Shown: positions 30,148 through 60,887 of the stretch, piece after piece
Layout: the number at the start of each line of letters is the position of its first letter
Position numbering within the stretch: the stretch's first letter is position 1
NCBI GenBank assembly: GCA_024207135.1
Contig: CP042428.1
Location: 3,472,001-3,536,000 of the forward strand
Length of the DNA: 64,000 nt
Source: Arthrobacter sp. C2
Lineage (GTDB): Bacteria > Actinomycetota > Actinomycetes > Actinomycetales > Micrococcaceae
Direction: 5' to 3'
The notes under the pieces: generated by a model
Told to the model about the DNA's origin: nothing
Database searches by the model: none
Seen by the model: only the letters and a program-made list of their open reading frames with translations
Translations under genes and position numbers: made by a program

Positions 30148-31929
30148 TTAGTCGGTGGACTTGGGTTGCACTCCGGGCTGTCCGCCATCGGTCTTGGGTG
30201 CGTCTGCGCCATGGACAGCTGCCGCGCCAACCGAGAGAGCCGGAACCGTGGCATCGGCTCGACGACCCTGGGGAACGGCCCGGCGCAGCCTTGCCGTTAG
30301 GTTCTGGAGATTGAGCAGCTGCGAATCCCGGTTAGGGCCTTCAACTTCCAACCCGTAGAAGTCACCGATGTGGTCCACGAACGCCATCCGACGGGCCTTC
30401 TCGTAGACCTTCACTTCGCGGGAGAATGCCCGGTACGTCGCCCAGCAGATCATGATCAAGACAATGCTGAAGGGCAACGCGATAACGATGGCTGCGGTCT
30501 TGAGCGCTTCGAGGCCTCCGGACAGGAGCAGCGAAGCGGCCAGCAGGGAGGTGGCCAGTGTGAAGAAGATGCGGATCCAGTTCTTTGGTTCCACGTCTCC
30601 GCCGGTGGCGATCATGCCCATGACCAGTGCCCCCGAGTCGGCAGAGGTGACGAAGAAGATGACAATCATGATGATTGCCCCGATCGTCAGCACGGAACCG
30701 GCCGGCAAGGTGTCCAGCATGGCGAACAAGGCGCCTTCGGTGTCGATCGAACGGTCCTCAGCCACGAGGTTCCCGGTGCCTTGCAGCTGGCCGTAGATCG
30801 CGGTTCCGCCCAGGACGGCGAACCACAGCATGGTGACAACCGTCGGGACCAAAATGACTCCGCCAACGAACTGGCGCACCGTGCGGCCGCGGGAGATCCT
30901 GGCGATGAAGATGCCCACGAACGGGGCCCAGGAAATCCACCAGCCCCAGTAGAACGTGGTCCACATGCCCTGCCAGGCTTCGCCTTCGGCACCGGTGAAG
31001 GCACTGACGTTGAAGGACATGGCAAGGAAGTTTTGCAGGTAGTTGCCGATCGACTGCACGAAGTTGCGCAGAAGGAATTGCGTGGGACCAACAATCAGCA
31101 GGAAGGCGACGAACACCCCGGCCAAGATCAGGTTGGTGTTCGAGAGCCACTTCATGCCCTTGCCAACGCCCGAAAGCACGGAGAAGAGCACCATGCAGGT
31201 GACGACGGCAATGATGACGAGGTCGACGAACTGGGAGGCCTTGAACATGCCGGCGCTTTCCAGCCCGGCACTGATCTGCAGGACGCCCAAGCCCAGCGAG
31301 GTGGCCACACCGAAGATCGTGCCAACCAGGGCTACAACGTCAATGAGGTTGCCGAGGCCGCCATGGACCTTGCGACCCAGCAATGGTTCGAGGGTCCAGC
31401 GGATCGAAATGGGTCGGCCTCGCCTGTGGATCGCATAGGCCAAGGCCAGCCCGATGACAACGTAGATCGACCACGCATGGACGCCCCAGTGCAGGAACGT
31501 TTGGGCCTGGGCCTGTTGGGCAAGATCTGCCGGGGACCCCGAAGCACCGGGTTTGGGCGAGGCAAAATGGCTCAGCGGCTCGGAGACGCCGTAGAAAACC
31601 AGGCCGATGCCCATCCCAGCGGCAAAGAGAAGCGAGAACCAGGAACCGAGGGAGAACTCCGGTTCGTCATCGTCCTTGCCGAGCTTGATCTCGCCGAATT
31701 TCCCGAATCCCAGCCAGAGGCTGAACACCACAAAGCCCGTTGCTATCAGGACGTAGTACCAGTTGAAGTATCCGATGATTTTCGTCTGGATGGATGAGAA
31801 GAAGGACTCTGCCGTACCGGGCATGGTCATGGCGAACGTGGCAAAAACAATGGTGATGATGGCCGCGGGCCAGAAGACCCACCGGTGTACACGCGGCGAT
31901 GTACTCGTCTTTGTCTGTTCGGTTGTCAT
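30148..31929 (-). CDS. BCCT-family betaine/choline/carnitine transporter
   Basis: A 593-residue secondary transporter, sodium- or proton-driven, for compatible solutes such as glycine betaine. Twelve hydrophobic segments are visible. The family hallmark is the Trp-rich stretch WGWWISWAPFVGIFIARISR near residues 320-340, and GMGIGLVFYGVSEPLSH near 105 is the helix-3 glycine motif. The C-terminal ~100 residues are hydrophilic and rich in Arg and Gln, like osmosensory tails of BetP relatives, with an Ala/Pro-rich end. Choline versus betaine cannot be decided. It converges on ctaD around the long palindrome, and its upstream spacer to the response regulator stop is 227 bp. Confidence 0.93.
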   Translation of the reverse strand: MTTEQTKTSTSPRVHRWVFWPAAIITIVFATFAMTMPGTAESFFSSIQTKIIGYFNWYYVLIATGFVVFSLWLGFGKFGEIKLGKDDDEPEFSLGSWFSLLFAAGMGIGLVFYGVSEPLSHFASPKPGASGSPADLAQQAQAQTFLHWGVHAWSIYVVIGLALAYAIHRRGRPISIRWTLEPLLGRKVHGGLGNLIDVVALVGTIFGVATSLGLGVLQISAGLESAGMFKASQFVDLVIIAVVTCMVLFSVLSGVGKGMKWLSNTNLILAGVFVAFLLIVGPTQFLLRNFVQSIGNYLQNFLAMSFNVSAFTGAEGEAWQGMWTTFYWGWWISWAPFVGIFIARISRGRTVRQFVGGVILVPTVVTMLWFAVLGGTAIYGQLQGTGNLVAEDRSIDTEGALFAMLDTLPAGSVLTIGAIIMIVIFFVTSADSGALVMGMIATGGDVEPKNWIRIFFTLATSLLAASLLLSGGLEALKTAAIVIALPFSIVLIMICWATYRAFSREVKVYEKARRMAFVDHIGDFYGLEVEGPNRDSQLLNLQNLTARLRRAVPQGRRADATVPALSVGAAAVHGADAPKTDGGQPGVQPKSTD

Positions 31930-32156: not shown

Positions 32157-32828
32157 TTAGTCCATATGAAGCTCGACCAGACCGTACTGCGCGGCCCGAA
32201 TCAGGGCCTGGACCCTGTCGCGGACACCGAATTTTGCCATGACCCGGCTCAGGTGGGCTTTCACGGTTGCCTCGGAAATGTGCAATTCTGCGGCCATCTC
32301 CGGATTGTTTCTGCCCCGTGCGAGTAGTTGGAGAACTTCCTGCTCCCGCTCGGACAATGCCATGGGGTTCGTCCCGATGGAACTACTGGGCTTCACATCG
32401 TGGGCCTCGCGAATTGCGCGAATAAGGTCCTGCGACACCGACGCGGAGATCGCCGCGCTTCCGTCTTGTACTGCCTGAATGGCTGCGAGAATTTCCGTGG
32501 GCTCGGCGTCCTTGACCAAGTAACCAGCGGCTCCTGCGCGAAGAGCCGGGACCAGGTATTCCTCCGAGGAAAAAGCGGTGATGGCAAGTACGCCAATGCC
32601 CGGGTAATTTGTGGTGATGATGCTGGTTGCTTCAACGCCGTCCATGCGGGGCATTTGCATGTCCATGAGGATTACATCTGGATTGTTGCCCACGCAGAAG
32701 TCGACGGCTTCAATGCCGTTAGTCGCTTCTCCAAGCCACTGAAATCCCGGGGCGGCTTCAAGGATGATCTTGAGGGCTTGGCGCATGAGTGGTTCATTAT
32801 CAACCACAAGAACTTGGATGTCGGTCAC
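32157..32828 (-). CDS. NarL/FixJ-type response regulator of the peptide cassette
   Basis: A 223-residue two-component regulator. The receiver domain (~3-120) has VVDNEP in place of the usual acidic pair DD/DE, the phospho-acceptor Asp56 in LMDMQMPRMDG, Thr in AITAFSSEEY and Lys in GYLVKDAEP. The LuxR-type HTH (~155-215) reads LSEREQEVLQLLARGRNNPEMA and ISEATVKAHLSRVMAKFGV. Start is GTG 32828. It is divergent from the small secreted peptide gene and the histidine kinase, a layout in which the kinase and regulator form a pair. Surrounding DNA is visibly less GC-rich than the rest of the window. Confidence 0.93.
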   Translation of the reverse strand: MTDIQVLVVDNEPLMRQALKIILEAAPGFQWLGEATNGIEAVDFCVGNNPDVILMDMQMPRMDGVEATSIITTNYPGIGVLAITAFSSEEYLVPALRAGAAGYLVKDAEPTEILAAIQAVQDGSAAISASVSQDLIRAIREAHDVKPSSSIGTNPMALSEREQEVLQLLARGRNNPEMAAELHISEATVKAHLSRVMAKFGVRDRVQALIRAAQYGLVELHMD

Positions 32829-32845
32829 AGTCTTGAGTCTAGTGA

Positions 32846-32916
32846 TCTTTTGGGTATTCAGCGTCTTTGATGGATAACAACATGAACTTTTGGGAAAACA
32901 CCTGTTGACTTATGGG
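32846..32916. promoter_or_regulatory. Three direct repeats in the divergent promoter region
   Basis: TCTTTTGGG at 32846-32854, ACTTTTGGG at 32886-32894 and ACTTATGGG at 32908-32916 share the pattern WCTTWTGGG, each followed by A/T-rich bases. The last two start 22 bp apart and the first two 40 bp apart, close to whole helical turns. They lie between the response regulator and peptide genes, so they are candidate sites for that regulator. A TTGACT at 32905-32910 overlaps the third repeat. Confidence 0.45.
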
Positions 32917-32929
32917 AATAAGTGCAACA

Positions 32930-33136
32930 ATGAGCAACATGACTCGTAAAACTCGTATCTTCGCTGCTGTAACCATGTCCGCGGCCCTCTTGCTGCCGGC
33001 CGCCATCCCTGCTCAGGCTGCCGTTGTCTCAGGGCCCATATCCAAAAGCATCTCATACCCGGTGGCATCGCCTGCCGGTGCAACCGACGCATTCAACGAT
33101 TGGATGTGCCGTAATCTCGGTGCGTTGTGTCGCTAA
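32930..33136 (+). CDS. Small secreted two-cysteine peptide, candidate signal of the adjacent two-component system
   Basis: A 68-residue precursor. The N-terminus is basic (MTRKTR), then comes a hydrophobic core and an AQA cleavage site at residue 30, giving a mature peptide of about 38 residues. The mature part is rich in Ser, Ala and Pro and ends in DWMCRNLGALCR, with Cys60 and Cys67 able to close a six-residue disulfide loop. I know no family for it. The stop is only 27 bp before the histidine kinase start, so they are probably co-transcribed. ATG 32930, 32912 and 32939 are all possible starts; none has a strong ribosome site, and a TTGACT just upstream could even allow a leaderless start at 32939. 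A signalling role is inference from layout. Confidence 0.65.
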   Translation: MSNMTRKTRIFAAVTMSAALLLPAAIPAQAAVVSGPISKSISYPVASPAGATDAFNDWMCRNLGALCR

Positions 33137-33163
33137 TTCCGTTGAAAAGCCGAGCTCACTGAT

Positions 33164-34453
33164 ATGAGCCCTGCTTTCGGCAAGAATGGGATGGTGAATC
33201 AAGAGAATCTTCCACCCGCCGCGAGTAAGCCATCGTCCGCCCCTTTGGGGCGGACGATTCTTCTCATTGCCAGCGGGATTGTCGCATTGTTGCTGGTTAC
33301 AGACATCATAAGTCTGCTCAGTGAAGCTGATCCTGCACGGTTTCGAGTTCGTGCAACGGAGTCCGTTGTAAGCGTTGCTTTCGCTCTAGCTCTCGGGATG
33401 ATGTGGGTCCGAGCGCAACTCTCCGTCGTTGTCTCCGTCCTAGCCATGGTTTTGGCCCTGATGGTGGGCACGTATCTTTTGTCTCTTCTTGTCGTGCCAC
33501 TGCTACTTGGGTTGGTCACGTTGACCCAGACACGCAGGTTTTCATTCCGTTATCTGTGTGTCACGCTCCTGTGGGCAATCTCGATCGTCGTCGTGCGGTC
33601 GTACGACGTAGGTTTCATCATCATCTTCGTACCACTGGTTGCAATCGCATACTTCGTGGCACTGTTTGCACGGAAGTACCAAGAACAGCGTGAATCGGAC
33701 AGGAAGCGCATAGAGGATCTGCGCCGCAAGCAGCAAGAAGCCGTGGAGGCCGAGCGCAAGGCCATCGCCAGGGACCTGCATGACATCGTCGCCCATGACA
33801 TCACCGTGATTTCCATGCAGGCCAAGGCCGCAGGTTTTTCGGGGGACCCCGCCGTCGCCCAGGCCGCACTCAAGGTCATCGGAAACACCTCGAAGGAAGC
33901 GCTGCAGGACCTCCGCGTCATGCTCAACGTCCTGCGATCGGACGGGCCAGCGACCCGCGTGGACGGATCGCTCGTTGACTCCGCGGGAAATGCAGCCAGC
34001 AGCCTGGAGATCCTCATCGGTGTCGAGGTGTTTGCCGAGAGGCTGATTGACCTCGGCCATCCGACGAAGACCATGGCCGATCCGAGGCTTGCCGGCTTGC
34101 CGCAGTCCGCGCAGGCCGCGCTGTATAGGGTTCTGCAGGAATCCACGACGAATATCGTCAAGCATGCGGAGCCGCATGCCGCATGCCGCATTGAGGCACT
34201 CGTGGTCGGGGACCGGGTATGGCTGGAAATCGCCAACTCGCTACCCCGCCACGTCATGGACCAAGGCTTCGACATTGGCGGGCACAGCTCCGGCATCGTC
34301 GGCATGTCCGACCGGATGGCGGCCTTCGGCGGCACCCTCTCCGCCAAGCGAGTCCGCGACGATTGGGTGGTGCGTGCCGAACTTCCGGCCACCACCATCG
34401 ACCAAGACCTCAAGGCTCCCGAGGACACCTCCGAAGCCTCGGACCAATTGTGA
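33164..34453 (+). CDS. Membrane sensor histidine kinase (HisKA_3 family)
   Basis: A 429-residue kinase. Residues ~30-170 contain five to six hydrophobic helices with little extracytoplasmic loop, so it may sense within or at the membrane. A coiled linker with KYQEQRESDRKRIEDLRRK (~171-189) leads to the H-box AIARDLHDIVAHD, with His206 the likely phospho-acceptor. The HATPase domain shows the N-box VLQESTTNIVKHA (~325) and the G-box SSGIVGMSDRM (~375-385). ATG 33164 is used; ATG 33191 is possible. The 5' part of the gene is clearly less GC-rich than the 3' part. It pairs with the response regulator across the intergenic region and follows the small peptide gene. Confidence 0.9.
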   Translation: MSPAFGKNGMVNQENLPPAASKPSSAPLGRTILLIASGIVALLLVTDIISLLSEADPARFRVRATESVVSVAFALALGMMWVRAQLSVVVSVLAMVLALMVGTYLLSLLVVPLLLGLVTLTQTRRFSFRYLCVTLLWAISIVVVRSYDVGFIIIFVPLVAIAYFVALFARKYQEQRESDRKRIEDLRRKQQEAVEAERKAIARDLHDIVAHDITVISMQAKAAGFSGDPAVAQAALKVIGNTSKEALQDLRVMLNVLRSDGPATRVDGSLVDSAGNAASSLEILIGVEVFAERLIDLGHPTKTMADPRLAGLPQSAQAALYRVLQESTTNIVKHAEPHAACRIEALVVGDRVWLEIANSLPRHVMDQGFDIGGHSSGIVGMSDRMAAFGGTLSAKRVRDDWVVRAELPATTIDQDLKAPEDTSEASDQL

Positions 34454-34897: not shown

Positions 34898-35521
34898 ATG
34901 AGCGTTGAAACCGCCGCAACCGTGTACGACCAGCTGTCGATCGATGCCGACACCGCAGACAAGCTTTTCCTTGAAGCCCGCACCGCCAACACCTTCTCCG
35001 AGGAAGCCGTCGCCGACGAGGCTCTCGATGCCATCTACGAGCTCACCAAAATGGGCCCGACGATGATGAACAACCAGCCGCTGCGCATCACCTGGGTCAA
35101 GAGCGCCGAGGCCCGCGAGGCAGTCGTCGCCAAGATGATGGAAGGGAACCGGGCCAAGTCCCTGGCCGCCCCGGCGCTTGCGGTGCTTAGCTACGACGCC
35201 GACTGGCACGAACAGTTCCCGGTGTTCTTCCCCCACGCTCCCGAGCGCAAGGCCATGTTCGACCAGGACGCCGCCTCGCGCGCCGAAATCGCCAAGAACA
35301 ACGCTTGGATGCAGGCCGGCTACTTCATCATGGCCGTTCGCGCCGCCGGGCTGCACGCCGGCCCGATGGGCGGCTTCGACGCTGCCGGAGTGGATTCGGT
35401 CATCAACGCGGATTCGTCCAACCACGCGTTCCTGATCGTCAACGTGGGCGCCCCGGGAGAGAACCCGTGGTTCGATCGCTTGCCGCGCCTCGACATCGAC
35501 GTGGCAACCACCAGCATCTAG
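34898..35521 (+). CDS. Nitroreductase-family protein, RutE/HadB-like (malonic semialdehyde reductase)
   Basis: A 207-residue flavoprotein of the nitroreductase fold, the size of RutE. FMN-contact regions visible are ELTKMGPTMMNNQPLRITWV (~47-66), and the C-terminal half has NNAWMQAGYFIMAVRAAGLHAGPMGGFD (~130-157), close to RutE and HadB/YdfN proteins. RutE reduces malonic semialdehyde from uracil breakdown; other members reduce nitro or quinone compounds. No rut genes are nearby, so the substrate stays open. ATG 34898 has AAGGAG upstream. Two tandem hairpins directly precede that site and could regulate translation or transcription. Confidence 0.87.
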   Translation: MSVETAATVYDQLSIDADTADKLFLEARTANTFSEEAVADEALDAIYELTKMGPTMMNNQPLRITWVKSAEAREAVVAKMMEGNRAKSLAAPALAVLSYDADWHEQFPVFFPHAPERKAMFDQDAASRAEIAKNNAWMQAGYFIMAVRAAGLHAGPMGGFDAAGVDSVINADSSNHAFLIVNVGAPGENPWFDRLPRLDIDVATTSI

Positions 35522-35608: not shown

Positions 35609-36775
35609 CTAGGACAAGACCTCTTCGGCCACCCGGGTCAGCGCACGTTCCAGCGGGGCACGAAGCACGCGCGGCACGCGGATGTGCTTGCCGATGCGCA
35701 CGAGTCCCTCGGCCTCGGCGGCACGCAGCAGGGCCTCGGCGGCCGGCACGGTCTTTGCGAAGAGCGGCTGCAGGTGGGCCTGTTCCGGCTCCAGCTCCCC
35801 GGGCGCGGGAATCGAAAAGGCTGCCTCGGTGCGCGGGGGATTCGCCGATCCGGCCTTGGCCAGCAACGCGGCGGTCATCTGCGTGACGGTGTGGTCCGCA
35901 TCCGGACCCACGGCATTGAGCAGGATGTGGGCGTAGATTCCCTCGGCCACCAGGTCCTTCGCCCCGCGGGCGCTGAATCCCGAATCGGCGTTCAAAGCCT
36001 CGGCCACCACGGGGTTGGGAAGTGCCCTTCCCTCTTGGAAGCTCAGCACCCCGGCACGCAACAGCGCATCCCAATAGGTGCCCAGTTTCGGAAGCTGAGC
36101 CAATGTGGCAATCGAGGATCCGGTCTCGGGCGCCCAACCCGGCCGTGCAACCTCGGATTCCGGGTCCAGGCGGACCTCGAGCCCGACGGCCGCGGCGGCC
36201 GAAACCAGGTCGGTGGGCAGCAGCAATCCGTCCTCTGCCACCTCGCGGCCTTCGCCCACCCAGGCCAGCAAGGCCCGGGCCGTGGCCACCATCGGCAGCT
36301 TGGCCCAGCGTTCGTCCGCGCTGGCCTCGTCAAGCTCGGGGACCACAACGGGGGATTGGCCACCCTGGGCCGACAGCAGGTCGAAGACGGCCTTGAATTC
36401 CTCCACCTCTCCGCTCCAACGGCCGGTTTCGGCCAAAAAGAGCATGAACTCGCGCAGCATGGCGGCGCACGCGACGGCGACCTCGTCGCCAAGCTCGCGC
36501 AGGTCCGTGAACTGGATGGCCAGCGCGTCATGGTCGAGCTCGGACACCGCCACCTTCCCGCGCAGCCGGGCATGGACCGTCAGCAGGGTCACCAGGCCCT
36601 CGATGCCGGCCTCCGAGTCGTCCGGGGTGTGGCGCTGGTTGAAGAAGGCCCGCAATTGCGCGGCGTAGGGCCGCATGGCCGTGCGGACCTGGTCCTCGAA
36701 CTTGGAGGCGCCGGCGCTTGGATTGCGTCCCGGGTGCCCGCTGCGTGGCTTGCCGGCGGATTTCGATTTCGACAT
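35609..36775 (-). CDS. Unrecognised protein, member B of the two-copy family (downstream of SWIM-SNF2 helicase)
   Basis: A 388-residue soluble, mostly helical protein with a basic, Ser/Gly-rich N-terminal tail (~1-25) that might touch nucleic acid. It shares ordered blocks with the product of 24130-25380, as listed there, and the two are of similar length. I do not recognise the family. The gene follows the SNF2 helicase stop by 69 bp on the same strand and probably shares its transcript. ATG 36775 is the only good start. The shared pattern (each paralogue placed after a DNA-acting enzyme) suggests a helper of DNA processing, but nothing in the sequence proves it. Confidence 0.78.
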   Translation of the reverse strand: MSKSKSAGKPRSGHPGRNPSAGASKFEDQVRTAMRPYAAQLRAFFNQRHTPDDSEAGIEGLVTLLTVHARLRGKVAVSELDHDALAIQFTDLRELGDEVAVACAAMLREFMLFLAETGRWSGEVEEFKAVFDLLSAQGGQSPVVVPELDEASADERWAKLPMVATARALLAWVGEGREVAEDGLLLPTDLVSAAAAVGLEVRLDPESEVARPGWAPETGSSIATLAQLPKLGTYWDALLRAGVLSFQEGRALPNPVVAEALNADSGFSARGAKDLVAEGIYAHILLNAVGPDADHTVTQMTAALLAKAGSANPPRTEAAFSIPAPGELEPEQAHLQPLFAKTVPAAEALLRAAEAEGLVRIGKHIRVPRVLRAPLERALTRVAEEVLS

Positions 36776-48390: not shown

Positions 48391-49212
48391 ATGAACCACG
48401 AAAAGCTCTTAGGCATCGGCGCCTTTGCCCAGGCGACCATGCTCTCACCCAAGGCCCTGCGGCTCTATGGCGACCGTGGGCTTTTGGTGCCGGTGTCCGT
48501 GGACCGATTCACCGGATACCGCTATTACGATCCGGACCAACGCAGCCGGGGCCGCATGATCGCGATGTTGCGCGCGGCGTCCATGCCGCTCGAGGGCATC
48601 TCGAGGTTGCTGAATCTTGGCTCGGCTGACCCTGAAGGCGCGTTGGAGCAGCTTGCCGCCTACGAATCCGCACTCCGGAACAACACCGAATCGACTTCCA
48701 CCCTGCTCGCCGCCGTGCGGGCGCACCTCAAAGGACAGGACATGGATAACGTCAATACCGTGTTGGAACCAGAGCGACACCTGGTCTCCATCATGCTGCA
48801 CACCTTCGTCGACGGCCTTGACACCGGGATGAAGCAAAGCCTGGAACAACTGCGGGCCTTCGCCGATGCCGAAGGGCTGGCCGTCACCGGCGACCCGTTT
48901 GGCATCTTCCACCAGGAAATCACCCCGGACTCCGACGGGCCGCTGGAAGTGTGCCTTCCGGTGGACAGGCTCGCCCCCGGCACCAACGACGCACCGGTGC
49001 GCAGCTACCGGCTGGCCGGAGGCCGCTACGCCAGCATCCGTGTCTCCGGTGCCGAGACGGCCTTCCCCGCAATCCTGGCGGCCTATGACCAGACCTGCAG
49101 CTGGGTCGAGGAGGCCGGTGCCACCGCGGTGGGACCACCGCACGAAATCTGGCATGTGCTGCCGTGGGCCGACGAACCGGCGGATATGACGGTGGCCTGG
49201 CCCTACGCGTAG
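48391..49212 (+). CDS. MerR-family regulator with GyrI-like effector domain
   Basis: A 273-residue regulator. The N-terminal MerR helix-turn-helix (residues ~5-75) shows MLSPKALRLYGDRGLLVPV and the wing RYYDPDQ. A helical linker follows, and residues ~120-273 resemble the GyrI/AraC effector-binding fold that recognises small drugs or cations. Multidrug-responsive regulators have this layout. No efflux pump is next to it. It is followed by a 239-bp gap before the dsbA-like gene, and transcription in the same direction does not tie them. ATG 48391 is the only start near the HTH. Confidence 0.85.
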   Translation: MNHEKLLGIGAFAQATMLSPKALRLYGDRGLLVPVSVDRFTGYRYYDPDQRSRGRMIAMLRAASMPLEGISRLLNLGSADPEGALEQLAAYESALRNNTESTSTLLAAVRAHLKGQDMDNVNTVLEPERHLVSIMLHTFVDGLDTGMKQSLEQLRAFADAEGLAVTGDPFGIFHQEITPDSDGPLEVCLPVDRLAPGTNDAPVRSYRLAGGRYASIRVSGAETAFPAILAAYDQTCSWVEEAGATAVGPPHEIWHVLPWADEPADMTVAWPYA

Positions 49213-49451
49213 GAGCAGGCCAAGGCCGCTCGATGCAGGGGGAGCCGCCGCGGCGGGGCGCATGCAGATATACCGGCCTCCGCGGCGGTGCCCCGACGCC
49301 AATTCGCCAACTGCACTTCACTTCGATACGTTCAAGGGAGGAAAACACCCCCGCCCAGCCTCAGCGCCAACCGGCCTTCCCCTCCCCGTGGGGACGCCGA
49401 AGCGCCACGGGGGCACGAGGGCCCAACCGGGAAGGAACCGGTGTCTCGGAC

Positions 49452-50195
49452 ATGACGGAATCCCCTGCAGCACCAACCAAGGCGAAACTGCCGTGGTTCT
49501 GGATTCTCCCGATTCCGGTGGCCCTCGGATTGGGCATCGTGATTGGCCTGCAGATTGCCGCACCCGGGGAGGCAGCCCCGTCCCCGGCGGCCGCGGCGAC
49601 GCAGGAAAGCCCGGGCCCGAGCCAGCCAGCACCCTCGGAATCCCAGCAGCGGATCAACGTGGAGCGGCGCGATGCCAACGACCCCACGGCGGTCGGCGAA
49701 CTCGACGCACCGGTTGTCATGGTCACCTATTCCGACTACCAATGCGGTTACTGCGCCAAGTGGGCCTCCGAATCGTTGCCGACCATCCTGGACAGCTATG
49801 TCGCCGGGGGACAGCTGCGCATCGAGTACCGCGACATCATGTTCTTCGGCGAAAACTCGCGGCAAAGCGCCGAGCTGGCCGTTGCGGCCGGCAAGCAGGG
49901 CAAGTACCAGGAATTCCACGACGCGATCTTCGCCAAGGGTGCCACCGCCAAGGATGCCGACTACTCCGCCAAGGGCATCGCGGCACTGGCCGAACGCATC
50001 GGGGTCGACGCCAAGCAGTTCACCGCGGACGCGGCGCACGCCGACACCGCGGCCCTGGTGCAGAAGAACCACGACGAGGCCGGCGCCCTGGGAGTCACCG
50101 GAACCCCGACCTTCATCGTCAACGGACGCCCGCTGATCGGCGCCCAGCCGCTGGAAGTCTTCGTGCAAACCATTGACGAGGAACTGGCCCGCTAG
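49452..50195 (+). CDS. DsbA-family thiol-disulfide oxidoreductase, membrane-anchored
   Basis: A 247-residue protein with one N-terminal membrane anchor (~residues 14-36), a Pro/Ser/Ala-rich linker and an extracytoplasmic thioredoxin fold. The catalytic motif is SDYQCGYCAKW (CGYC, ~residues 98-101), and the cis-Pro loop is GTPTFIVNGRP near 217. It would form or isomerise disulfides in exported proteins. ATG 49452 lacks a close ribosome site. The ccdA gene begins 17 bp downstream, so the two form a thiol-redox operon. Which partner keeps it oxidised or reduced (VKOR or CcdA) is not visible from sequence. Confidence 0.9.
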   Translation: MTESPAAPTKAKLPWFWILPIPVALGLGIVIGLQIAAPGEAAPSPAAAATQESPGPSQPAPSESQQRINVERRDANDPTAVGELDAPVVMVTYSDYQCGYCAKWASESLPTILDSYVAGGQLRIEYRDIMFFGENSRQSAELAVAAGKQGKYQEFHDAIFAKGATAKDADYSAKGIAALAERIGVDAKQFTADAAHADTAALVQKNHDEAGALGVTGTPTFIVNGRPLIGAQPLEVFVQTIDEELAR

Positions 50196-56277: not shown

Positions 56278-59200
56278 CTACTTGCGCACCTCCACATCCA
56301 CTACCTGGGCGCGGTTGCCCGAGGCGTTGTGCAGGTGCAGGAACAGCGCCTTGGCATCGGTGCCGTCCGAGGCGACGGCCGCGGTCAGCTTGGCCTTGTC
56401 CAGGTCCGCGAACGCGGTTCCGCCGCCAACGAAGGACAATTCCGGGGCGATCGCATTGAAGGCGATCCAATCGGTTTCATCCACCGGGGCCAGGGCACCG
56501 GATTCATCGGCGTTGTACACGGAGTACGTGCTCACGCGGTAGCTGATCGGTGCACTGGAACCGCTCAGGCCCAGCGCCGCGAGCGACACCGGGAGGGATG
56601 CCACGTTGGTGTCGAAGGTGTTGGTGTCGACATCGCCGCCCAGCCCGTTGAGGAACTGCAGGTCGACCTGCGAACCGGTGCGCAGATCGAAGGTCGCGGC
56701 CAGGTCGGCATCCAACTCGTCGAAGTAGCTGTTGAAGGTGACGAAGTCCGCCGCGCCGTCGCCGTTGGTGTCGATTTCGACGTCGATCTCCGTGGCTCCG
56801 GCCAGGTGGGCCCAATTGCCCCAGGTGCTCACACCGAAGTTCAGCAGACCGTCGGCCGCGCCCGTGGTGGGGGCGGTGGAGGAGGCACCGACGAGCTGCA
56901 GGTCCATGGAGCGTGCGCCCGGGATCGCGTCGGCGCTGCCGGGCAGCTTGCCCGAGGAGGCCCCGAGCTCGAACGCGGAGAGCAGCGATACCACCTGGGT
57001 GTCGGCGGAACCGGCCCGGATGTCGTCGCCGGCCAGGTCGACGGTGCCGGAGGTGGCGCCGGCGTCGAGCTTGATCTTCTTGGCGCCCATGTCGGCAACC
57101 AGCTTCGGTGCCGCCTGGACCGGGACGCGCAGCGTCGGTGCGGTGGAGCTGGAAAGCTCCACGCGGCCGGAGACATCGGCGACCCAGGCGCGCGGCAGGC
57201 CAAGCTGTGTGCGGTCCATGGTCGGATCGATGGTCTTGGCGTACTTGCGTGCATCCACGTCAAGGGTGACCTTGACCTGGGTGCTTGCCCCGGCCGCGAG
57301 CGTCACGGTCTTCTTGTCCAGGGAGTAGCCCGCACCCGGGATCTGCGTGGCTGGCAGGTACTTCACCTTGTAGGTCTGGGTCTTGTCGGACTTGTTGACC
57401 ACGGTGATGGACCTGGCGGCCTTGTACTTGGTCTTGTCGACCTCGATGACGCCGAAGGTCACGGAGACCAGCTCCGGGTCCGCGGTGGCGAAGGCGTAGG
57501 CGGGGGAATTAATCGCCGCATCGGCAATGACGCGCCCGGAACCCACGCGGTTTGGCCCGTAGGCCTCGCCGTTGGCGGCCAGGATGTCCACCGTGGCGGT
57601 GTTCATCACCAGGGACTTGACCTGCAATGCGGTGTATTTTCCGCTGCCTGCCACCAGTGCGGCAATGCCCGCGGTGTGCGGGGTTGCCATGGAGGTGCCG
57701 GACATGACGGCCGGGCCGTTGCCCGTGCCCACGCCCACCGAACCGATGAGCGTGCCCGGTGCGGCCACGTCCGGCTTGACGATGCCCTCCGAGCCATGCA
57801 CACCGCGCGAGGACGAGGAGTTCAGGGTGTCCCCGATTCCCGACTCGACCGAGGCGGTGCCGACCAGCTTCGGATCCAGGGTGACGTTCAGCGTGCCGTC
57901 TTGGGCCGCGGGGCGCAACTGGTCCGAGAAGGCCTTGGTGAACTGGGCGCCGGGGATCGTGGCGTTGCCGGCGATGCCGGCCTCGAAGACCGCCACCTCG
58001 GAGTCCAGGATGACACCGGTGGCTCCGGCGGCTTCGGCGTTGTTGAAGCGCGTGCCAGAGCCGCAGGGGAACTGGAGGTTCTCGCTCCACTGCAGCCAGA
58101 CCCACTTGCCGGCCAGCGAGCCGGGCTCAAACGGGGCGCAACCGAAGGCGTTGGCTGCCGGTGCCATGACGACATCCCCGGTCAGCGTGGCCGGGTCGGC
58201 GGTGGTGTAGTTGAAGTTGGCCGAGTACTGGCCTGCCGCGGTTCCCGCGACGTCGGCCGGTGCGTTGACCTTGATGCCGTCGAGGGTGACCTTGGTGCCC
58301 ACGGAGTTGGCCACGGTCAAGGAGGAGCGGGCGTTGCCCGGCGAGCCGCCGACGTCGGTGACGTCCCCGGCGTTGCCGGAGGCGACCACCGAGAGGATTC
58401 CCAGGCCGGTGAGGGTGTTGACGATGTCGTTCTCGGGGTCTTCGACCGGCGAGTGGTCCGAGCCCAGGGACATGTTCACGATCTGGGCGCGGTCGGAGAA
58501 GTCGCCGTCGTTGTTCGGGTCCAGGACGTAGTCCAGTGCCTGTCCGACCACGGAGGAGGAACCCTCGCAGCCAAAGACGCGGATGCCGACCAGCGATGCC
58601 TCCGGGGCGGAGCCCGGGCCGATGAGCATGGAGCCCACCTCGTCTGCGGTCAGCTTGGTGTAGTCGCCGGTGAAGGTGGTGCCGTCGGCCTTCACTCCGT
58701 ATCCGGCAGCGGTGCCCGAGACGTGGGAGCCGTGTCCGGCCGAGGCGCAGTCAAGCGGGTTCGAGTCCGGCTTGGGAACCGGCTGGTAGCTCGGCGCGCT
58801 GGGGTCCGCGTTGTAGTCGTCGCCCACCAGGTCCCAGCCGCCGATGAACTTCTCGGGGTCGTACAGCCCCGAGGTCTTGGACGGCAGGTCCTTGGAGGCC
58901 TGTGCGGTTGCGTAGGCCTCGAGGGTGCCCGGGCCGCCGAAGCCGGCGTGCGTGTAGTCGATGCCGGTGTCCAGCACGGCGATGGTGATGCCCTCGCCGG
59001 TCTCCTGCAGGGTGTTCCAGGCCTGGAGGGCGCGGGTGTCGATGTCCGAGCCCTTGTTGTCGGGGGTCTTGGGGACGATCGCGGTGATTTTCTTGACGTC
59101 GGGGCGCGAGGCCAGGGCGCGCAAGGCGTCGGCGTCTCCGCGCAGGGCCACGCCCGGCAGGGAGTTGGTGGTCGTGTAGATGACCTCGGCCTTGGCGGCC

Positions 59201-59565
59201 TTGGCGGCGGACTTGCCCTGGGCCTTGATGCCGTCGCGGATCTTCTTGACCTTGTCGGGGTTCTTGACCGACTTGCCGCGTGGCGACTTGGCGCTGTCCG
59301 GCTGGGTCGCTTCGAAGGCGCCTTCTCCATCGAACTGGACGAAAACGGAGACATCGCCCTGGGCCGCGGCCAGCGGGCCGGAGACCTTCAGGTTTTTCAG
59401 CGACTTGGGGACGGTTCCGCCGAGGGACGGCGAATCGGCACCCGGTGCCGGGTCGATCGTCGGCGGTGCCGCAAGGGATGGGACGGACATGGTGACGGCC
59501 AGGGCGAGCCCCGAAGCCGACGCCAAGATCGTCCGCGCAAGTCTGTGACGACGCGGGTTGGACAT
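56278..59565 (-). CDS. Large secreted subtilisin-like serine protease (S8)
   Basis: A 1095-residue secreted protease. Signal peptide ~1-32 (RRHRLARTILASASGLALAVTMS..LAA). A propeptide-like inhibitor I9 region spans ~50-165. The catalytic triad is Asp in IAVLDTGIDYTH (~195), His in GHGSHVSGTAAG (~279) and Ser in MSGTSMATPH (~624). A protease-associated (PA) insert lies at ~430-560. After the protease core the ~440-residue C-terminus has Fn3/Ig-like beta text. ATG 59565 follows AAGGAGAACC. A strong promoter lies about 90-110 bp upstream. It probably degrades extracellular protein for nutrition. The opposite strand is open for 1229 codons, a GC artefact. Confidence 0.93.
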   Translation of the reverse strand: MSNPRRHRLARTILASASGLALAVTMSVPSLAAPPTIDPAPGADSPSLGGTVPKSLKNLKVSGPLAAAQGDVSVFVQFDGEGAFEATQPDSAKSPRGKSVKNPDKVKKIRDGIKAQGKSAAKAAKAEVIYTTTNSLPGVALRGDADALRALASRPDVKKITAIVPKTPDNKGSDIDTRALQAWNTLQETGEGITIAVLDTGIDYTHAGFGGPGTLEAYATAQASKDLPSKTSGLYDPEKFIGGWDLVGDDYNADPSAPSYQPVPKPDSNPLDCASAGHGSHVSGTAAGYGVKADGTTFTGDYTKLTADEVGSMLIGPGSAPEASLVGIRVFGCEGSSSVVGQALDYVLDPNNDGDFSDRAQIVNMSLGSDHSPVEDPENDIVNTLTGLGILSVVASGNAGDVTDVGGSPGNARSSLTVANSVGTKVTLDGIKVNAPADVAGTAAGQYSANFNYTTADPATLTGDVVMAPAANAFGCAPFEPGSLAGKWVWLQWSENLQFPCGSGTRFNNAEAAGATGVILDSEVAVFEAGIAGNATIPGAQFTKAFSDQLRPAAQDGTLNVTLDPKLVGTASVESGIGDTLNSSSSRGVHGSEGIVKPDVAAPGTLIGSVGVGTGNGPAVMSGTSMATPHTAGIAALVAGSGKYTALQVKSLVMNTATVDILAANGEAYGPNRVGSGRVIADAAINSPAYAFATADPELVSVTFGVIEVDKTKYKAARSITVVNKSDKTQTYKVKYLPATQIPGAGYSLDKKTVTLAAGASTQVKVTLDVDARKYAKTIDPTMDRTQLGLPRAWVADVSGRVELSSSTAPTLRVPVQAAPKLVADMGAKKIKLDAGATSGTVDLAGDDIRAGSADTQVVSLLSAFELGASSGKLPGSADAIPGARSMDLQLVGASSTAPTTGAADGLLNFGVSTWGNWAHLAGATEIDVEIDTNGDGAADFVTFNSYFDELDADLAATFDLRTGSQVDLQFLNGLGGDVDTNTFDTNVASLPVSLAALGLSGSSAPISYRVSTYSVYNADESGALAPVDETDWIAFNAIAPELSFVGGGTAFADLDKAKLTAAVASDGTDAKALFLHLHNASGNRAQVVDVEVRK

Positions 59566-59650
59566 GGTTCTCCTTGAATCCGGTGGGAGTGACTGGGAGT
59601 GATGAGGACGGATTCCCGCGAGCGGATTGATGGGCACCGTCCCACGCCAC

Positions 59651-59678
59651 ATCCTATGTGAGGCGCGGCACATATCAA
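59651..59678 (-). promoter_or_regulatory. Probable promoter of the subtilase gene
   Basis: On the minus strand, TTGATA (59678-59673), a 16-bp spacer and TAGGAT (59656-59651) lie 86-113 bp upstream of the ATG. Confidence 0.5.
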
Positions 59679-59996
59679 GGGGTTGTTTGAGATTCCTTGG
59701 AAAATGTCGCGGGGAATTGGCCGGATCCGGGGAGGGGGGATCCGGACCCGGGAAACCGTTTTGGTTCAGTGCCCGCAGACGCTGGAGGGAAGACCAGGAC
59801 CCGGGCCCGGCAAAGTGTCGGAGGTCGCCGATAGCCTTTGGGCAGTCGGTGGGCCTCTTGGGGAGGAACCACCGCCCGCACCGCGGGCGCGGGACGGACG
59901 GGGAAGCGACGGCTGGCATCGGGCAAGGACGCCGCTGCCGCGAACCTGTTTGTCCGCGCGCCGACGAGGCGGCGGCGTTTCTGGGGGGAAACGCAA
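59679..59996. other. 318 bp upstream of the subtilase promoter, no gene seen
   Basis: Only overlapping short frames without ribosome sites or known motifs are open here. It may hold operator sites for the protease gene; I see no clear repeat. Confidence 0.4.
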
Positions 59997-60030
59997 AAAC
60001 GCTGGTCCCATGCGTGCATGGGACCAGCGT
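59997..60030 (-). terminator. Terminator of the ThiD/PdxK gene
   Basis: A perfect 15-bp stem (59999-60013 with 60016-60030) around GT, lying 33 bp after the kinase stop. On the minus strand it is followed by TTTTTGCG, the usual U-tract. Confidence 0.85.
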
Positions 60031-60062
60031 TCTGCCTGGAAGGTCTTCGGGTTGCGGCGGCC

Positions 60063-60887
60063 TTACCGTGTTCCGCCTTGCCACAGGGCGTCGAACGGGG
60101 CGGCGGATGCCACGCGGTTCTTGATGCCCTCGGTGACAAAGATCTTGGCATTGCGTGCAGCCTGCAGCGGGCTCTCGCCCTTGGCCAGCTCGGCGGTGAT
60201 GGCGGCGGCCAGCGAGCAACCGGCACCCGACACGGCAACTTCCCCGACCTTCGGGGCCGAGAGGATCTCAAGGGTTTCGCCGTCGTAGAACACGTCCACG
60301 GCCTCGGAGCCGGCCAGGCGGACCCCGCCCTTGGCCAGCACGGCCGCGCCGGAAAGTGCGTGGATCTTCCTTGCGGCCTCGGCCAGGTCCTCGACGTTGT
60401 TGATGCTCATCCCGGACAGCGACTCGGCCTCGAAGTGGTTGGGGGTGACGAAGGTGGCCAGCGGCAGCAGGTTCGCCTTCAGTGCTTCGTCGGTGTCCAG
60501 GGCGTGGCCCGGTTCCTGGCCCTTGCAGATCAATACCGGGTCCAGGACGACGTTGTCCCATGCCTGGTTCTTCAGCGCGGCGGCAACGGTGTTGATGGTG
60601 GCCGGGGAGCCCATCATGCCGAGCTTGACGGTCTTCAGGTCCGCTGCATAGCAGGTCTGGACAGCTTCGAGCTGGTCGGCGATGACCTGCGGCTCAACCG
60701 GGACGAAACGGTGGTTCCAGTTGTCCTTCGGGTCGAAGGAAACGATGCAGGTCAGGGCAACGATGCCGTAGGTGCCCAGTTCCTGGAAGGTCTTCAGGTC
60801 GGCCTGGGCGCCGGCTCCGCCGGTTGCTTCGGAACCGGCGATGGTCAAGGTGATGGCGGGACGGGTCCCGGTGGTGGCAGAAGTCAT
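60063..60887 (-). CDS. ThiD/PdxK-type kinase (hydroxymethylpyrimidine or pyridoxine kinase)
   Basis: A 274-residue ribokinase-fold kinase. The substrate-binding N-terminus is AGSEATGGAGAQADLKTF (residues ~17-34). The LDPVLICKG segment near 120 and the anion-hole motif SGAGCSLAAAI (~225-235), with Cys replacing Thr after GAG, follow. Firmicute PdxK/ThiD proteins that act on pyridoxal and HMP share this look. No thiC, thiE or pdx genes are adjacent. Bifunctional thiamine use and vitamin B6 salvage are both possible. It is a single-gene unit with its own terminator. Confidence 0.87.
   Translation of the reverse strand: MTSATTGTRPAITLTIAGSEATGGAGAQADLKTFQELGTYGIVALTCIVSFDPKDNWNHRFVPVEPQVIADQLEAVQTCYAADLKTVKLGMMGSPATINTVAAALKNQAWDNVVLDPVLICKGQEPGHALDTDEALKANLLPLATFVTPNHFEAESLSGMSINNVEDLAEAARKIHALSGAAVLAKGGVRLAGSEAVDVFYDGETLEILSAPKVGEVAVSGAGCSLAAAITAELAKGESPLQAARNAKIFVTEGIKNRVASAAPFDALWQGGTR

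Follow-up and report, generated by a model that had tools for sequence, protein, structure and literature searches.

A 64,000-nucleotide stretch of DNA from Arthrobacter sp. C2 (contig CP042428.1, positions 3,472,001 to 3,536,000), hereafter called the window and numbered from its first nucleotide, carries a small gene for a two-cysteine peptide directly before a histidine kinase gene and divergent from a response regulator gene. We have good confidence that this cassette (32157-34453) encodes a peptide-pheromone two-component system, in which a Sec-exported peptide would serve as the cognate ligand of the adjacent kinase. A preliminary description of this DNA had noted a small secreted peptide with two cysteines next to a polytopic histidine kinase and divergent from a NarL-type regulator, and these genes are present where it placed them. 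Its wider proposal, that they make up a signalling cassette with an unfamiliar peptide, is supported by the conservation of the cassette across genera described below. The parts of the locus are as follows.

32157-32828, minus strand: NarL/LuxR-type response regulator with a GTG start (Response_reg 94 bits, GerE 70 bits).
32829-32938, no strand assigned: divergent intergenic region of 110 nt, aligned across 14 Paeniglutamicibacter and 18 Glutamicibacter.
32939-33019, plus strand: signal peptide, residues 1-27, with an AQA site, as judged from its sequence.
33020-33136, plus strand: putative mature peptide with a terminal W-x-C-x6-C loop, stop codon included; C-x6-C is kept across genera, and the peptide varies between sister species.
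33164-34453, plus strand: histidine kinase of the HisKA_3 (DesK/ComP) class with six predicted transmembrane helices (HisKA_3 E 3e-17).
33242-33673, plus strand: kinase sensor domain, residues 27-170, proposed as the peptide receptor (63% identity over residues 15-170 to the related genome G006).
33020-33718, plus strand: hypervariable block running from the mature peptide through the sensor, with approximate edges, delimited by sliding identity, synonymous divergence, tree tests and base counts in the peptide tail.

The genus group of the window (g1) is here called Paeniglutamicibacter, and group g37 is called Glutamicibacter because one member, G225, carries the G. arilaitensis Re117 plasmid at 100% (5,000 bases compared). 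A kinase orthologue (57-100% identity) was found in each of the 15 genomes of the window's genus that were searched, and in all 15 the regulator lies on the opposite strand. A conserved peptide reading frame before orthologous kinases, whose absence the preliminary description would have counted against its proposal, was looked for across Micrococcaceae. A close peptide homologue adjoins the orthologous kinase in 15/15 genomes of the window's genus, so the peptide frame is not a chance one, and a peptide profile applied to 395 family genomes together with a genus search placed the cassette in 18/18 Glutamicibacter genomes. The family search returned 63 genomes with E ≤ 0.001, among them 46 with the right layout and 17 others with weak matches. 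All 28 aligned loci (18 in g37, four in g29, two in g48, one in g4 and three in the window's genus) have a divergent regulator and a peptide gene ahead of the kinase, and five further profile matches outside the alignment (G069, G150, G042, G123 and G206) have this layout too. Besides Paeniglutamicibacter and Glutamicibacter, six more Micrococcaceae genus groups have members with the cassette. Because the layout is kept across genera, these comparisons show that, as far as gene organisation can tell, the peptide, kinase and regulator are one unit.

Beyond the family, an order-wide peptide search of 396 genomes gave 21 with E ≤ 0.001. Only G000 (the window genome), G050 and G042, all of the same family, had the right layout, and the other 18 gave weak, mostly partial matches in other frames. 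No convincing match was found in the order outside the family, either with the peptide (E ≤ 0.001, 396 genomes) or with the sensor (E ≤ 1e-25, 297 genomes), in sets that are samples of a larger group. The sensor profile used here was made from 14 kinases already known to have a peptide, and it includes the start of the kinase core. Within the family it identified 71 places in 70 of 385 genomes at E ≤ 1e-25. A peptide ending in Cys-x6-Cys lies upstream at all 50 places with E < 1e-40 (15, 18, 2, 8 and 7 genomes from five genus groups), including five (G094, G115, G134, G163 and G194) whose peptides escaped the peptide profile at E ≤ 0.001 and came to light only in the DNA upstream of the kinase. 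Among the 21 weaker places, 17 were examined (G224, G193, G274 and G311 were left out), and six have a Cys-loop peptide, with loops of five to seven residues: G174 (g52), one of two places in G297 (g27), and G189, G230, G247 and G295 (g6).

The g27 kinases for which no Cys-loop peptide was found are those at loci L213, L220-L224, L226-L228 and L230 and at one of the two places in L225; they may reflect either loss of the peptide or a state before its gain. Locus L225, in G297, has two such kinases. The one at C7:137680-138234 has a Cys-loop peptide upstream with the tail FFCQYVDPFYCD, and no regulator lies directly beside this kinase in the stretch examined.

We compared the divergence of the cassette with that of the rest of the window in a 64-kb colinear comparison of G000 and G006, using 45 mechanically picked open reading frames cut into 886 overlapping segments of 145 codons. 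The eight segments with the highest synonymous divergence (pS) are all kinase segments that start in the sensor half (pS 0.58-0.77); segments of other reading frames have a mean of 0.134 and a maximum of 0.493. Kinase residues 15-170 are 63% identical between the two genomes, residues 171-410 are 98% identical, and the regulator is 99% identical. The mature peptide is 78% identical over 37 aligned codons, and the signal peptide is identical in amino acids. For nonsynonymous divergence (pN), the highest segment belongs to a subtilase gene (Peptidase_S8; 56281-60219, minus strand), with the sensor second. The N-terminal region of this subtilase is the most divergent other stretch relative to G006, and part of this may be poor alignment. 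Divergence is also locally raised at the N-terminus of a DsbA-like thioredoxin (49164-50192, plus strand), a possible disulfide oxidase whose link to the peptide is not shown.

Sliding identity was calculated for six pairs of genomes. In four of these, comprising two close pairs of Paeniglutamicibacter (G006-G000 and G010-G000) and two of Glutamicibacter (G207-G259 and G171-G283), DNA identity drops from some 88-99% to values mainly of 50-75%, with single windows reaching 89%, in one block, which spans the mature peptide to kinase residue ~180-190, and then recovers. Recovery in the catalytic half is partial (76-91%) for G171-G283. The pair G251-G275 exhibits no drop, and its 24-residue peptide cores differ by one residue. 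Four control HisKA_3 kinases yielded sensors that are 84-99% identical, with pS of 0.06-0.36, in 11 usable comparisons out of 12. The comparison of control kinase K3 with G010 was left out (36.6% match, no orthologue), and because the His pattern did not match in the controls, residue 170 served as the sensor boundary in every one of them.

These data bear on the possibility that the divergent block is merely a fast-evolving membrane region, for example one under phage pressure, with the peptide as an unrelated hitchhiker. Membrane sensors generally evolve faster, other window proteins such as the subtilase also diverge locally, and between G000 and G003 the signal peptide is as divergent in amino acids as the mature part (both 89% identical). 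However, synonymous sites in the block are near saturation between G000 and G006, and therefore alleles appear to have been replaced, rather than only amino acids selected. Moreover, the divergence sets in within the peptide gene and leaves the signal peptide largely untouched (G000-G006 and G000-G010), and the control sensors lack such a block. We therefore regard a hitchhiking peptide as very improbable.

Distances between peptides correlate with distances between sensors in both genera by Mantel tests (r 0.74, p 5e-5 for 14 Paeniglutamicibacter; r 0.60, p 1e-4 for 18 Glutamicibacter). The correlation in Paeniglutamicibacter persists in a partial Mantel test corrected for the regulator and kinase core (r 0.56, p 0.00075). 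G014, a near-duplicate of G009, was left out of the identity matrix and these distance tests. Taken together, the comparisons show that the mature peptide and the sensor, as read from their sequences, diversify together between species.

The clearest case of joint change is G006. By its kinase core, regulator and nitroreductase, this genome groups with G000, G003 and G010 (support 100/99), and by its sensor it groups with G007 and G009 (support 100/100). Approximately unbiased (AU) tests of 13 genomes reject either grouping on the data that give the other (p = 3.1e-5 and 2.5e-5), with the tested group chosen after the identity matrix was known and with G014 and G012 left out of the trees. The peptide loop of G006, CRYLGAAC, resembles that of G007 (CRYFGAAC), and the sisters of G006 have CRNLGALC. 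Over the last ten peptide codons up to the second Cys, 27 of 30 bases match G007 and 20-23 of 30 match the three sisters. The peptide loop and the sensor of G006 thus appear to have been replaced together.

The preliminary description had left the role of the peptide among an autoinducer, an accessory sensor peptide and a stress peptide. The joint hypervariability and apparent co-exchange of mature peptide and sensor favour the first of these, an autoinducer or cognate ligand. An accessory kinase subunit, namely an extracytoplasmic co-sensor or inhibitor that acts in cis and stays with its own cell, seems unlikely to us, although constant adjacency and joint divergence are also expected of an obligate subunit and no spare receptor would be needed. 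There is no obvious reason why both parts of such a subunit pair should be replaced species by species, and the peptide sequences reveal no recognisable anchor beyond the signal sequence. In addition, the pattern fits the polymorphism described for pheromone-receptor pairs in the cited parts of PMC5385187 and PMC4008528.

Several observations weigh against a pheromone function or narrow what can be claimed for it. The comparisons are between species, with one genome per species, and the partial Mantel correlation in Glutamicibacter is not significant (r 0.14, p 0.12). The equal divergence of signal and mature peptide between G000 and G003, given above, belongs here as well. The peptide alone is not unique, because eight of 1761 peptide-size segments outside the kinase match its pN and pS together. 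The whole mature peptide of G006 is 84% identical to that of G010 and 82% identical to that of G007, and only the terminal part is foreign in type. In the 15 codons that precede the loop, 40 of 45 bases agree with G003, 37 with G000, and 34 each with G010 and G007. The change-over would therefore lie inside the mature peptide, since the loop is G007-like and the preceding codons are nearer to G003 and G000. Related kinases without a Cys-loop peptide upstream exist at 11 of the 17 weaker sensor places, all in g27. No shared operator or inverted repeat was recognised by eye in the aligned intergenic regions of 14 Paeniglutamicibacter and 18 Glutamicibacter, and autoinduction is therefore unsupported. 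Finally, the four window neighbours tested (a BCCT-family transporter, a nitroreductase, a protein without a Pfam match and an SNF2 helicase) include neither a processing enzyme nor a peptide exporter, so that any maturation beyond Sec export is assumed.

The genes flanking the cassette are the BCCT transporter (30148-31929, minus strand) and the nitroreductase (34898-35521, plus strand). In Glutamicibacter, a homologue of the gene at 35609 is kept in 17 of 18 loci and the nitroreductase in about half, and none of the window's neighbours was found within 10 kb in seven loci of g29, g48 and g4. The gene neighbourhood indicates no clear output for the system.

The peptides have no match above cut-off in Pfam or NCBIfam, and the window peptide has no match in plasmids. 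A peptide profile searched against PDB sequences gave eight weak matches, none with E below 0.1 and most of them in the signal-peptide region. All 14 Paeniglutamicibacter and 18 Glutamicibacter peptides have a Trp at the second position ahead of the first Cys, and the Glutamicibacter peptides have a scaffold (P-A-G, W, C, Y, C) that is invariant in 18/18, with variable positions between. An AlphaFold2 model of the kinase (mean predicted local distance difference test score 75.5, predicted template modelling score 0.48) places helices at residues 27-52, 57-81, 84-101, 105-121, 124-144 and 146-225. The best Foldseek match of the kinase is DesK; among the matches listed, the kinase core is aligned and the sensor is not. 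NCBIfam scores for MadR (148.6 bits, cut-off 300) and MadS (31.7 bits, cut-off 500) are below both cut-offs, and membership in MadRS was ruled out on these equivalog scores.

These properties also invite comparison with a secreted bacteriocin-like antimicrobial, for which the kinase and regulator would be an immunity or stress switch that senses or answers it. The peptide is small, of secreted type, Cys-containing and fast-evolving; one homologue is weakly like lactococcin 972 in NCBIfam (E 0.011, 16 bits against a cut-off of 32); and the regulator resembles MadR, albeit below cut-off. We nevertheless judge this reading quite unlikely, because no peptide exporter or immunity-like gene is present among the four neighbours tested, the three-gene unit persists where the window's neighbours are absent, and the sensor diversifies along with the peptide, something not required of a killer peptide by itself.

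The peptide precursor begins with MTRKTRI, followed by a hydrophobic stretch, the AQA site and the tail WMCRNLGALCR. It had been described as a 68-residue product with Cys60 and Cys67. The reading frame does end at 33136 and the cysteines have these numbers in the 68-residue version, but the start is most likely ATG 32939, on comparative grounds, giving 65 residues. This codon is favoured over ATG 32930 because it is present in all 14 aligned genus members, with a TTGAC box ~29-34 nt before it in 13 of 14 (TTGACT at 32905-32910 in the window's intergenic region, 5' of the peptide start), and because ATG 32930 is absent in at least three (G001, G004 and G007). The mature peptide would have 38 residues if cleaved after AQA, and the two cysteines become Cys57 and Cys64. 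The reported 27 bp between peptide and kinase is right for a kinase start at ATG 33164. Every genus member has a kinase start codon at residue 9-14, and none is present before residue 11-14 in G009, G010, G012 and G014, so the true start may be 33191 or 33194. From sequence and family, the kinase phosphorylation site is assigned to His206 (codon 33779-33781), and from sequence the phospho-acceptor of the regulator is assigned to Asp56. A box reading TAGACT on the regulator strand (window 32829-32845) lies directly 5' of the regulator start in most genus members, a position that suggests a leaderless or near-leaderless regulator transcript.

The lower GC content that had been remarked upon was borne out by measurement and covers the regulator, the peptide and chiefly the membrane half of the kinase. 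The three kilobases from 31 to 34 kb have 58.4, 54.9 and 57.4% GC, and most of the window has 62-71%. By gene, the values are 57.5% for the regulator, 58.5% for the peptide and 54.6% for the kinase membrane half; in each of the 14 genus members examined, this half has less GC than the catalytic one. Recent acquisition of the cassette, as might be read from low GC, was rejected, since the low GC is a trait common to the genus.

Based on these findings, we propose that the 65-residue precursor leaves the cell through Sec with cleavage after AQA, and that Cys57-x6-Cys64 then closes as an extracellular disulfide. The resulting peptide would act on the six-helix membrane domain of the kinase as its cognate ligand, a pairing supported by their constant linkage and joint diversification. 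As is usual for these families, the kinase would then phosphorylate the divergently encoded NarL-type regulator (His206 to Asp56). Species would differ in their peptide and sensor specificities, or pherotypes, and share the rest of a conserved chassis. Recombination with edges within the peptide gene and close to where the kinase core begins is the probable source of new combinations, as the tree tests and identity profiles support. A likely use of such a system would be kin density sensing or kin recognition.

One genome with the cassette, G155, is probably Micrococcus luteus. Frames resembling clpP, clpX and an N-6 methylase on visual inspection sit at the M. luteus coordinates given in the cited part of PMC8467076, and three of four single bases compared disagree with that paper, which used another strain. 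The peptide precursor of G155 ends in ...EWTCRHFGIWCD. In the part of PMC12849477 (2026) cited here, on M. luteus competence, the authors state that they lack evidence of any dedicated competence-inducing peptide or two-component system, and their data argue against a density-only trigger. The cassette is a concrete candidate signal in this probable M. luteus genome; control of competence is not supported by the evidence presented here.

The preliminary description had likened the layout to those of ComQXPA, Agr and Rgg systems. By our analysis the cassette seems most like ComX-ComP-ComA, yet it would not count as a member of ComQXPA or of either of the other two. With Bacillus ComQXPA it shares a polytopic HisKA_3 kinase, a NarL/LuxR-type (REC-GerE) regulator and a short peptide gene directly before the kinase. 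It also shares a polymorphic peptide and kinase N-terminus combined with a conserved kinase C-terminus and regulator, in the cassette between species only; the cited parts of PMC4008528 and PMC5385187 describe a variable ComX C-terminus and ComP N-terminus beside a conserved kinase core and regulator. Unlike ComQXPA, there is no ComQ isoprenyl transferase among the window neighbours tested, the regulator is on the opposite strand rather than co-directional, the peptide has a Sec-type signal peptide and two Cys at fixed spacing, and the kinase has six predicted helices instead of 8-10. For a prenylated tryptophan, another ComQXPA feature, the relevant observation is the invariant Trp before the first Cys described above. 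The Agr (AgrBDCA) systems of Firmicutes likewise pair a peptide with its own polytopic kinase and form specificity groups, with HPK10 and LytTR proteins. The cassette differs from these in that no AgrB protease was found among the neighbours tested and no thiolactone precursor was seen, and in its HisKA_3 kinase and GerE regulator. In Rgg/RRNPP systems the receptor is a cytoplasmic regulator that binds the peptide, whereas the candidate receptor here is a membrane kinase. The kinase and regulator architecture is that of the DesK/DesR and NarX/NarL class, in line with the structural match to DesK, but the cassette has its own peptide gene and a hypervariable sensor.

In the ComCDE/Blp double-glycine pheromone systems, a secreted peptide also activates a neighbouring kinase and pherotypes occur. 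Unlike these (for Blp as the comparison, see the cited part of PMC8545106), the cassette has, by eye, an AxA Sec-type leader and no GG leader, it has no LytTR regulator, and the window neighbours tested include no ABC gene. Among the matches listed in open-licence PMC titles and abstracts, we found no earlier description of the peptide or cassette. Most known peptide pherotype systems are those of Firmicutes. A review of actinobacterial quorum sensing (PMC4748050), in the part cited here, lists Arthrobacter under genera with bioinformatic, LuxR-type evidence only; it describes actinobacterial signalling as using cyclic or modified peptides and butyrolactones, and names no Micrococcaceae peptide system. 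We think it reasonably likely that the cassette represents a new pherotype-forming peptide quorum-sensing family in Actinomycetota (Micrococcaceae). This family would use a Sec-exported disulfide-loop peptide, without an adjacent modifying enzyme or dedicated exporter, that is read by a DesK/ComP-class kinase, with loop and sensor moving between species as one recombining cassette, and in Micrococcus it may be a missing population cue for behaviours such as natural competence. The cassette peptides are short and should be easily synthesised, and natural chimaeras such as G006 predict which swaps should alter specificity.

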